Assembly: GCA_026195255.1 (NCBI GenBank)
Contig: JAPHSS010000025.1
Location: 1 to 44,290, forward strand
DNA: 44,290 nucleotides
Source of the DNA: Gammaproteobacteria bacterium
Lineage (GTDB): Bacteria; Pseudomonadota; Gammaproteobacteria; SZUA-229
Direction of reading: 5' to 3'
Position numbers and translations under genes: made by a program. Of the stretch, positions 28,158 through 32,076 are shown piece after piece; the first letter of the stretch is position 1, and each line of letters begins with the position of its first letter. Below the pieces are notes generated by a model. That model was given only the letters and a program-made list of their open reading frames with translations. It had not been told where the DNA came from and searched no databases.

Positions 28158-29318
28158 TTAGCGTCTAAATTTTGGTATTTTTTCAATAAGCTCGTTCCAT
28201 GTATCGACAAACTTAGGCTTGCTACTATTTACAGGTTTAGATAAAAATCGTGACAGCTCCTCTGCAAAAGCATCGATATCTTTCACCATGCCTTTAATTC
28301 CACGATGATCTACAAAAACTAGCTGGCCTTGTTCTTTTATTATAAGAGACAGTTTTAATCTATTAGCCGCAGTCTTTTCTGATGTATACAAATCAAACCA
28401 CTCACCTACTTTCACATAACCAGGTAATTCATTTAATATACTCTCATATTTATTAGACTTATCTTCAAGCGCCTGTTTTTCAAAAAGAGAATTGTTTTCA
28501 TGTTTAAATTTATTTAAATTTACAGAAATTGCCTTTTTTAAGGCTTCAGTATTAATTGTAATTCTTTTTTTATCAATATCTGATTCAGATAAGAACTCAT
28601 GTATAGACTTAATTAATTCTAACCTGTTATCATTAATATCAGTCCATTTGCTAATATCTTCAATAGGCTGTAGATACTCAATTATTATTCTAAAATAATC
28701 TATCCCTTTAACCCAGTACTCACTTTTAATATCTTTTTTATAACATTTTTTATACATGAATTGTGGCCATATTTTAAGAGTCAATTCATGTGCCAAAATT
28801 GGTATACTATTATTTGATATTACTTTTTGTAGCTCAGTTATAATCTTCTGTTTAAAGCGGTCTTTCTCATCTTTTCTTAAAAGTTGTTTGTCTTTGATTT
28901 CATAATTATTTATAACTTCATTTTTATCAGTTTCATCAATTAATGTTAGTAATTTTCTATTCGCTATTATGAAATCATCCAGGCTCACTTCATTTACATG
29001 TATTAGACTGTCAGTTATTTTACTAATATTTATCGACAGGTCTTTTAGGTTTTCTTTTGAGCTAGATATTTTAGTTAATAATAACAGTGTAATTCGTGCT
29101 GGATGTGATCGATCACTAAAAAATTTTTTATCAGATGATATTTTTATAACAGGTGAGCGTAGGCCTATTAGATACGGTTTTATTTCCTGAGGTATACTTG
29201 AGTCTTCTTTTAATGAAACGAAGAGCATGTCTATAAATTGAAGCGTTTTTGTCGCCATAATTAAACCAATAATCATATATTCTAAATGAAATTCCATTAT
29301 TAATTTAGAATAGAGCAA
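28158..29318 (-). CDS. short DUF1631-family protein
   Basis: The 386-residue protein matches the later part of DUF1631 proteins. It has FIDMLFVSLKEDSSIPQEIK and KKFFSDRSHPARITLLLL (family pattern: inter-helix FF-x-RSHPAR), then a helical middle. The end GEWFDLYTSEK...LVFVDHRGIKGM corresponds to the family's terminal PilZ-like barrel. Usual DUF1631 proteins have about 700 or more residues, so the N-terminal half is missing. ATG 29258 is an equally likely start, since recognisable similarity begins just after it; no strong ribosome binding site marks either. Function unknown. Base use is strongly AT-rich. Confidence 0.72.
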   Translation of the reverse strand: MLYSKLIMEFHLEYMIIGLIMATKTLQFIDMLFVSLKEDSSIPQEIKPYLIGLRSPVIKISSDKKFFSDRSHPARITLLLLTKISSSKENLKDLSINISKITDSLIHVNEVSLDDFIIANRKLLTLIDETDKNEVINNYEIKDKQLLRKDEKDRFKQKIITELQKVISNNSIPILAHELTLKIWPQFMYKKCYKKDIKSEYWVKGIDYFRIIIEYLQPIEDISKWTDINDNRLELIKSIHEFLSESDIDKKRITINTEALKKAISVNLNKFKHENNSLFEKQALEDKSNKYESILNELPGYVKVGEWFDLYTSEKTAANRLKLSLIIKEQGQLVFVDHRGIKGMVKDIDAFAEELSRFLSKPVNSSKPKFVDTWNELIEKIPKFRR

Positions 29319-30744: not shown

Positions 30745-32076
30745 CTATACATCACTTAGTCTGTTAACCAGTCGTGCTATTTGTGCCCAGTCATGTGAAA
30801 CAATATCCTGTGAATGTGCAAGATGATTTCTAAGTGACTCTAGTTCTTTAATTATTCTTTTAGCTTGTTTACCTGATTCAAAACCAATTTGCTCTACTGA
30901 TTTTTTATCTGTGATTAAGATACCAGCTTTATCTGAAAATTGTAAACAGTCTATAAAATTACAGTGCACGTCACGTTTTTTTCTTTCCTCCCATATCTTC
31001 CTGGTTTTCTCTAATCGACCGCTAGTCATTACCTGCGTCCAGGTTCCGTCAGGATATACTTTTTCTATTAATTGAGTTATAGCTGTTTCAATCATAGTCA
31101 CCAGTCCAAACAACCACATTCTAACTTGAGGCTTGTTTATTTCGTTCCTGGTTATTACTCCTGTCACCTCTGAGAAAATACTTACAAAACAAAAATCATG
31201 CCTTGTTAGTACATGTATAACATCACTTAAACTTGCAGTGCCTCTTATTACCTGATCAACAGTAAAATGACGCATACTATCGCCACACACCTTACCTTTT
31301 AATCCTATTTGTTTTACATAACCTTGAACGCTGCCATTTATTCTAATACTAGCCACACTTTGCTTATGGTATTTGAATGCTTTTTCAGCTATGTTATTTT
31401 TTGTATTACTATCAAAGGAGAGTAGACTTTCTGCAATATCCCTGGCGGTGAATAACTGTAAATATTTGTTTTTAAAATTTATATCTGAAAATCCTGGTAA
31501 ATTCATTAATGCATTTTTAACAGGTTCAATATGTCTTTGTATTCTAGGGTCAACACCAAGATCTTCACTGCTTTTTATTAACAGTTGCTCAGCTTGTTTT
31601 AATAAATTTGAGTCACCACCTACTAAAATATTTAATAATGCATACATCTCAGACATATAGGTAATAGCAAATTTTTTATCATTTTTAACTATATCTGTAC
31701 AATTATGAATTAAGTCGGCTAGCTTAATTGTTTTTGCTCGACTCGATGCGGTCGCTAAATGTTGACGATCTATTTCTTTACGTGCCGCTCGATTACCATC
31801 AGAGGGTTTACTAATATCAGTTAACTCTTCAACAAGATCTGCTACAGACCTACCAAATGATTTTTCAATATCACCTAATGTTGCAGGTGTATCCTCCACC
31901 GTATCATGCAACCAGGCTGCTGCAATGACTTCTTCATCATCAGTTACAGTAGAAACCAGTTTGGCAACTTCGTGAAGGTGTGTTTGGTAGGGTTGTTTTG
32001 TATATTTACGAACATGGCCTATTCTTTGATGCTCGGAAGTTGCAAATTTTCGTGCTTTTTTAATTAACTCTGACAT
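30745..32076 (-). CDS. HD hydrolase (SpoT/MESH1-like) with CBS and HEPN-like C-terminal region
   Basis: The 443-residue protein combines three parts. Residues 1-180 form an HD hydrolase with the RelA/SpoT-type signature: H33 in YQTHLHEVA, H57-D58 and E61-D62 in LHDTVEDTPAT, and D121 in IKLADLIHN. No synthetase domain is present. Residues about 205-320 look like a CBS pair (LFTARDIAESLL, FTVDQVIRG...FVSIFSEVTGVITRNEI). The C-terminal helical part carries LRNHLAHSQDI, an R-x4-H motif (R416, H421) with N after R, as in HEPN ribonucleases. Likely roles are alarmone hydrolysis and possibly RNA cleavage under nucleotide control; both are inference. It precedes the YhiN-like gene. Confidence 0.8.
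   Translation of the reverse strand: MSELIKKARKFATSEHQRIGHVRKYTKQPYQTHLHEVAKLVSTVTDDEEVIAAAWLHDTVEDTPATLGDIEKSFGRSVADLVEELTDISKPSDGNRAARKEIDRQHLATASSRAKTIKLADLIHNCTDIVKNDKKFAITYMSEMYALLNILVGGDSNLLKQAEQLLIKSSEDLGVDPRIQRHIEPVKNALMNLPGFSDINFKNKYLQLFTARDIAESLLSFDSNTKNNIAEKAFKYHKQSVASIRINGSVQGYVKQIGLKGKVCGDSMRHFTVDQVIRGTASLSDVIHVLTRHDFCFVSIFSEVTGVITRNEINKPQVRMWLFGLVTMIETAITQLIEKVYPDGTWTQVMTSGRLEKTRKIWEERKKRDVHCNFIDCLQFSDKAGILITDKKSVEQIGFESGKQAKRIIKELESLRNHLAHSQDIVSHDWAQIARLVNRLSDV

Follow-up and report, generated by a model that had tools for sequence, protein, structure and literature searches.

The window, by which we mean the whole stretch of 44,290 nucleotides that was analysed, encodes a real and well-conserved protein of known architecture, and our results give a sharper reading of its HD domain. 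Three types of domain lie on one chain and are conserved together: an HD domain, a CBS pair and a HEPN-like domain with an R-x4-H motif (Table 1). What the analysis adds to the architecture as already described is that the HD domain is predicted, from sequence comparison and structure models, to be specifically of the alarmone-hydrolase type. The reading frame given in the original prediction, its ATG start and its numbering of H57, R416 and H421 were correct.

Table 1. Coordinates in the window of the HD-CBS-HEPN gene and its parts.
Feature	Positions	Strand	Basis
Whole gene, HD-CBS-HEPN protein, 443 aa	30745..32076	-	ATG start; AF2 model mean pLDDT 87.1, pTM 0.57
Small-alarmone-hydrolase (MESH1/SpoT-type) HD domain (predicted), residues 1-175	31552..32076	-	Pfam HD_4, VIA-align, PHROG 990
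HDxxED motif, H57-D58...E61-D62	31891..31908	-	Invariant in 31/31 aligned fused proteins
CBS pair (predicted nucleotide sensor), residues 205-315	31132..31464	-	VIA-align; Pfam CBS in 9/29 relatives
HEPN-like domain, residues 316-443	30748..31131	-	Pfam HEPN_Swt1 below cut-off; VIA-align of domain model
RNHLAH, residues 416-421, R-x4-H motif of HEPN ribonucleases	30814..30831	-	R416/H421 in 39/39 rows

Pfam matched only HD_4, HD and HEPN_Swt1 in the window protein. The same search of 29 full-length relatives found HD_4 in all of them, HEPN_Swt1 in 26 (E up to 0.01) and CBS in nine, and the C-terminal parts of 39 relatives gave HEPN_Swt1 in 31 and CBS in 15. The pTM of 0.57 for the full AF2 model (mean pLDDT 87.1) leaves the placement of the domains relative to one another uncertain. 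The window gene was the sole full-length copy found in the 3.56 Mb genome, where the other match fell on a long RelA/SpoT protein, in its HD part.

To collect relatives, a collection of 84,980 species was scanned with the CBS-HEPN part alone, the scan being limited to two short peptide patterns that contained neither R416 nor H421. This returned 40 loci, 30 of which also matched the HD domain. Two of the remaining ten are cut near a contig end (L047 and L059) and eight encode CBS-HEPN proteins without an HD match, in open frames of about 267 to 362 codons. The HD-less locus L064 also lies near a contig end, but in its near copy L068 the 3.1 kb of DNA available upstream contains no HD. Fused forms occurred in Gammaproteobacteria, including DSM strains of Plasticicumulans acidivorans and Halochromatium glycolicum, in Betaproteobacteria, and in assemblies labelled Desulfobacterales, Deltaproteobacteria, Nitrospirae and Nitrospiraceae; most came from metagenome-assembled genomes. 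We aligned 27 of the 30 HD-positive loci with the window protein, L003, L004 and L005 (31 rows), leaving out L032 and L061, which lie on the same contigs as L004 and L005, and L060, whose reading frame is broken. HEPN residues were counted in 30 of these rows since L070 is cut, the 29-row set (A3) also omits the near copy L044 along with L070, and the addition of HD-less and cut relatives gave 39 CBS-HEPN rows. The aligned proteins were chosen as unbroken, and their conservation says nothing on decayed copies.

The HD domain was matched by Pfam HD_4 (residues 8-132, E 8.9e-18) and by PHROG 990, a family of metal-dependent phosphohydrolases (residues 1-157, E 5.3e-37). Foldseek and VIA-align were used for fold matches of the HD domain and the middle region, and the HD model aligned with human MESH1 (9chy_B) over 167 residues at Z 23.9 and rmsd 1.7. 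By sequence, the closest solved structures were MESH1, small alarmone hydrolases and RelA/SpoT hydrolase domains. The hydrolase motifs of MESH1/SpoT that had been noticed at the outset were confirmed in the alignment: H33, H57, D58, E61, D62 and D121 are identical in all 31 fused proteins, and we take them, from their roles in MESH1/SpoT, to be the metal-binding and catalytic residues. We rejected a long RelA/SpoT enzyme, whose synthetase, TGS and ACT domains were absent (Pfam, E up to 5); a synthetase domain is likewise lacking in small alarmone hydrolases. The NCBIfam RelA/SpoT model TIGR00691 scored 70.7 bits on the HD region against a cut-off of 499.2.

PF04607 matched two long RelA/SpoT proteins only in the genome (99.91% complete), both on other contigs, and these presumably already control (p)ppGpp there. 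A toxSAS toxin-antitoxin module was also rejected, as no small alarmone synthetase was found anywhere in the same genome. Small alarmone hydrolases are described, in the available text of PMC9765508 and PMC7644958, as hydrolysing (p)ppGpp, (p)ppApp or, in some reports, NADPH, depending on the member; NADPH hydrolysis was not found in the study of PMC7644958, as far as its available text goes. Within the open-licence literature we found no description of the HD of CBS-HEPN fusions as an alarmone hydrolase.

The middle of the AF2 model (residues about 205-326) matched several CBS pairs at a VIA-align Z of about 9, for example 3sl7_A (Z 9.4, rmsd 2.7, 116 residues). Pfam CBS did not match the window protein itself, and its matches came from the nine full-length relatives mentioned above; together with the fold these uphold the CBS-like region that was first proposed. 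A CARF sensor of the Csm6/Csx1 type was considered as well. The region resembles CBS pairs instead, which points away from CARF, and the PADLOC match to Csx1/Csm6 was confined to the HEPN part (E 0.011). The CBS domains of mycobacterial IMPDH bind ppGpp, according to the available text of PMC11303537.

For the C-terminal domain, Pfam HEPN_Swt1 matched residues 327-440 at E 4.8e-5 and 24.1 bits, under the curated cut-off of 27.5. The PADLOC matches of the window protein were weak and fell on HEPN parts only, PDC-M34B (E 4.4e-4) standing beside the Csx1/Csm6 match. R416 and H421 were identical in all 30 fused proteins whose aligned sequence extends to the C-terminus and were kept in all 39 CBS-HEPN rows, and the poor conservation feared for these two residues of the HEPN-type RNHLAH motif did not materialise. 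When the domain was modelled alone (pLDDT 81.0), the ten best VIA-align entries were HEPN/MNT toxin structures, HI0074 (which we take to be HEPN kin) and Csm6, at Z 7.3 to 6.1, and HepT was among the top HEPN matches. The best match had a rmsd of 2.8 over 90 aligned residues and a Z of 7.3, modest for a helical domain and in a range where the tool warns that mere helical arrangement may be reflected. An unrelated complex took rank 11 at Z 5.8; a family missing from these lists is not thereby excluded. Foldseek gave 0 matches for the domain alone at E up to 0.001, and a sequence-profile search for solved HEPN relatives found none credible. The fold check put forward in the original prediction placed HEPN structures first, by a modest score and through VIA-align. 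We call the domain HEPN-like because the Pfam family, the invariance of the motif and the top-ranked folds agree, each being weak to moderate on its own.

The distribution of the gene was followed at several depths. A search of 116 relatives' genomes gave full-length matches in two genomes of the same genus (78% and 74% identity), so that three of the five genomes of the genus carry the gene, the window's own included, and one full-length match at 47% in another family of the class. Across 369 genomes of the class the CBS-HEPN profile matched 18, and BLAST of these loci found the fused gene intact in 13, counting the window's own, and broken in two, G315 and G110. What G110 retains is the HD and the HEPN end alone, read in separate frames. 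The other three were a locus that ends at the edge of the fetched DNA (G205), one without an HD (G325) and a weak match (G346). At the level of the phylum, the full-length profile at E 1e-40 picked out seven of 398 sampled genomes; the window's own was the only fused one, five had an HD protein of about 198 codons only, and the seventh was G325. For the phylum of the Desulfobacterales locus, the CBS-HEPN profile matched 25 of 297 sampled genomes, five strongly and 20 weakly (E 8e-6 or worse). Of the five, the starting genome G419 has the fused form and four had no HD match in the fetched loci.

The loci L083 and L098 carry broken copies of the fused gene. One is without its middle and the second has a partial internal repeat and an altered frame, possibly an assembly fault. 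Both have intact relatives, and the genus of the first copy includes one of these.

Trees were made for the two parts of the protein, and both have moderate branch support and drew long-branch warnings from the tree program. The HD tree, in which 31 HDs of phage, plasmid and chromosomal small alarmone hydrolases and RelA/SpoT proteins served for comparison, placed the 29 fused HDs on one side of a branch with support of 82/99 and in 84% of bootstrap trees. In the CBS-HEPN tree, ten HD-less rows (eight bacterial and two haloarchaeal) fell on one side of a branch at 63/99 and 58%. The two splits fit one domain gain that stayed useful. The simplest reading, moderately supported by these sequences, is that the HD was probably fused once onto a broader CBS-HEPN family.

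By analogy with Csx1-Crn2, the reading that we tentatively favour, and hold to be quite possible but short of probable, is a single-gene nucleotide-gated ribonuclease with an off switch or timer that destroys its ligand. The CBS pair would bind a purine nucleotide that is formed during stress or infection; candidates are alarmones, (p)ppGpp and (p)ppApp among them, and other adenine nucleotides. Binding would rearrange the dimer so that two HEPN domains build a composite R-x4-H active site, and this site could then cut cellular RNA, by which growth would be slowed or the infection aborted. The HD domain, hydrolysing the CBS ligand or its precursor, would set the threshold and end the response. 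RNase activity, dimerisation, alarmone hydrolysis, the identity of the ligand and a role in defence or stress are all inferred from the families concerned. The main uncertainty of the mechanism is whether the HD substrate and the CBS ligand are the same molecule, as it supposes. The link from alarmone or nucleotide level to RNA cleavage, as it was first put forward, is plausible.

A narrower form of the mechanism, in which RNA cutting is switched on by an alarmone at the CBS pair and the fused HD destroys the same alarmone, we regard as rather unlikely. If true, such a self-limiting alarmone-gated RNase would correspond, on the alarmone side, to the Csx1-Crn2 fusion of CRISPR, and the stringent response would be wired directly to RNA decay or phage defence. 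Were the CBS ligand the substrate of the HD, sensor, effector and eraser would sit in one gene as a very simple nucleotide-signalling circuit, and a ligand candidate would be suggested for the CBS-HEPN defence protein DS-11.

The same domains could also serve two independent outputs, the HD clearing alarmones or NADPH and the HEPN cutting RNA, with a CBS ligand (for example the ATP/AMP ratio or Ap4A) that is not the HD substrate. The R-x4-H motif is kept in the HD-less CBS-HEPN relatives, DS-11 is described with CBS and HEPN alone and with an adenine derivative suspected as its ligand (PMC13092281, available text), and small alarmone hydrolases accept several nucleotides (PMC9765508 and PMC7644958, likewise in part). 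Independent outputs would, however, give a poorer account of HD and HEPN sites that are kept together in 30 fused proteins, a set chosen as unbroken from a family in which broken copies exist, and we consider them improbable.

The genomic neighbourhood bears on whether the protein is a defence gene. Two genomes of the window's genus (G000 and G004) have the gene flanked by glmU and yhiN, and in a third (G003) it follows glmU on a short contig that also includes the beginning of yhiN. G001, which is without the gene, has glmU followed directly by yhiN. The neighbours had originally been described as AT-rich and accessory. GC is indeed 0.29 to 0.34 around 27-32 kb of the window, and the short DUF1631 gene (28158-29318, minus strand; 386 aa, AT-rich, matching only positions 356-722 of the 741 of the profile) was missing when the corresponding stretches of G001 and G004, both of the same genus, were compared. 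The description did not hold for the YhiN-like gene, which is kept in two same-genus genomes at 73-75% identity.

We clustered 199 neighbouring ORFs (90 aa or more, picked mechanically) from 27 loci. A constant operon partner was rejected, the largest neighbour cluster occurring in only seven of the 27 loci. That cluster is a hybrid histidine kinase, whose gene immediately precedes the fused gene in the seven loci (L035, L036, L037, L038, L043, L044 and L048), at a gap of 5 bases or an overlap of 4 bases, and which is confined to relatives of chemosynthetic symbionts; HisKA, HATPase and receiver domains were found by Pfam in the kinase of L048, the one searched. This suggests that the kinase and the HD-CBS-HEPN gene form an operon in symbiont-related genomes. 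The neighbours vary in other lineages, and the directly coupled downstream genes are not the same, encoding a META domain, NhaA or a solute-binding protein. PADLOC (E up to 1e-5) was run on 73 of the 199 ORFs, near copies and short ORFs being omitted, and no family matched more than one of these proteins from the 27 loci. Among the 77 PADLOC families with a match in the neighbours, the best 25 comprised 24 GajB/UvrD-helicase models plus a single RTasHel model. The neighbours examined are unlike a defence island, and that reading is not supported.

These neighbours fit a housekeeping or stress regulator of RNA turnover, under sensor-kinase control in some lineages, as an alternative to a defence gene: those identified are ordinary chromosomal genes, the kinase gene adjoins in the seven loci, and PADLOC gave no repeated family. 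On the other hand, the scattered presence of the gene, with 13 intact copies in 369 genomes, looks accessory, the gene is missing from G001 between glmU and yhiN, and broken copies occur in two genomes. On balance a housekeeping role seems doubtful to us.

Conservation is uneven along the chain. The HD is the best-conserved domain, with a mean pairwise identity of 0.63 in the 29 fused rows and 47 of its 175 columns invariant, and the values for the HEPN, the CBS pair and the HD-CBS linker are 0.56, 0.43 and 0.12. The linker is free to vary while both predicted active sites are invariant. Hydrolysis could be the main function because the HD is best conserved, and the HEPN might then control it as an RNA-binding sensor that does not cleave; a precedent is the Swt1 HEPN of eukaryotes, described as inactive in the available text of PMC3710099. 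We find this quite unlikely, as R416 and H421 are invariant in all 39 rows, and CBS-HEPN without HD at eight of the 40 loci implies that the HD is not needed for its service.

The HD might instead be a hydrolase captured from a phage or plasmid, serving against the alarmone hydrolases of phages as a safeguard or bait. This appears very improbable: although the best stand-alone HDs among the matches listed were those of phages and plasmids (44-52% identity, against 34-41% for stand-alone HDs in relatives' genomes) and PHROG 990 matched strongly, the HD tree joins the fused HDs to no single phage or plasmid HD, and further stand-alone HDs in five genomes of the phylum sample (E 1e-55 to 1e-66) are off the tree. 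A phage-borne HD as the partner of a conserved gene was rejected, the eight genes beside six phage and plasmid HDs being mutually unrelated. In Komagataeibacter phage phiKM1 (L106, 2298-3477) a stand-alone HD comes directly after HicA- and HicB-like genes.

Among 50,697 phage records none matched the C-terminal part (E up to 1), and ten of 72,556 plasmid records did, all haloarchaeal. Two of the plasmids carry distant CBS-HEPN proteins of about 26% identity (L116, 3977-4831; L117, 3809-4642) with R-N-x-x-A-H kept, and both have a 357-base gene on the opposite strand just upstream of the CBS-HEPN gene.

Returning to the nucleotide-gated ribonuclease with its own off switch, we compared the protein with known systems. 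The architecture is already in print and is neither distinct nor new in kind: HEPN, CBS and HD appear together in PMC3710099 and CBS-HEPN defence in PMC13092281. The available text of the former (Anantharaman et al., 2013) gives, under the Swt1/Abi2 group, a HEPN fusion with 'CBS and HD (alr3009), active', also names gi 118580987 of Pelobacter propionicus, and proposes that such proteins might respond to nucleotides and so regulate RNA stability. By this domain description they are like the window protein, with HEPN, CBS and HD on one chain. They differ in that the HD is termed a phosphohydrolase only in that text, whereas the window's HD is predicted to be of the MESH1/SpoT small-alarmone-hydrolase type. 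The available text of PMC7701990 and PMC6563490, which mention both domains, does not describe a HEPN-CBS fusion.

DS-11 is an experimentally supported CBS-HEPN protein that stops phage (2026; PMC13092281, available text). Its defence was lost when the CBS residue Y157 or the HEPN catalytic residues were altered, and its ligand is called undiscovered by its authors, who suspect an adenine derivative. The window protein resembles it, by description, in having CBS and HEPN on one chain from a single gene, and differs in carrying an HD, of which the available text makes no mention for DS-11. The HD itself shares with small alarmone hydrolases and MESH1 the fold (Z 23.9) and the conserved active-site residues, but those are stand-alone proteins of about 180-200 aa and the window protein has 443 aa with CBS and HEPN. 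Csx1-Crn2, as described in the available text of PMC7293037, is a nucleotide-gated RNase fused to an enzyme that destroys its activator. It has a CARF sensor and a ring nuclease where the window protein has CBS and HD, and its ligand is a cyclic oligoadenylate from type III CRISPR, whereas that of the window protein would be a putative nucleotide.
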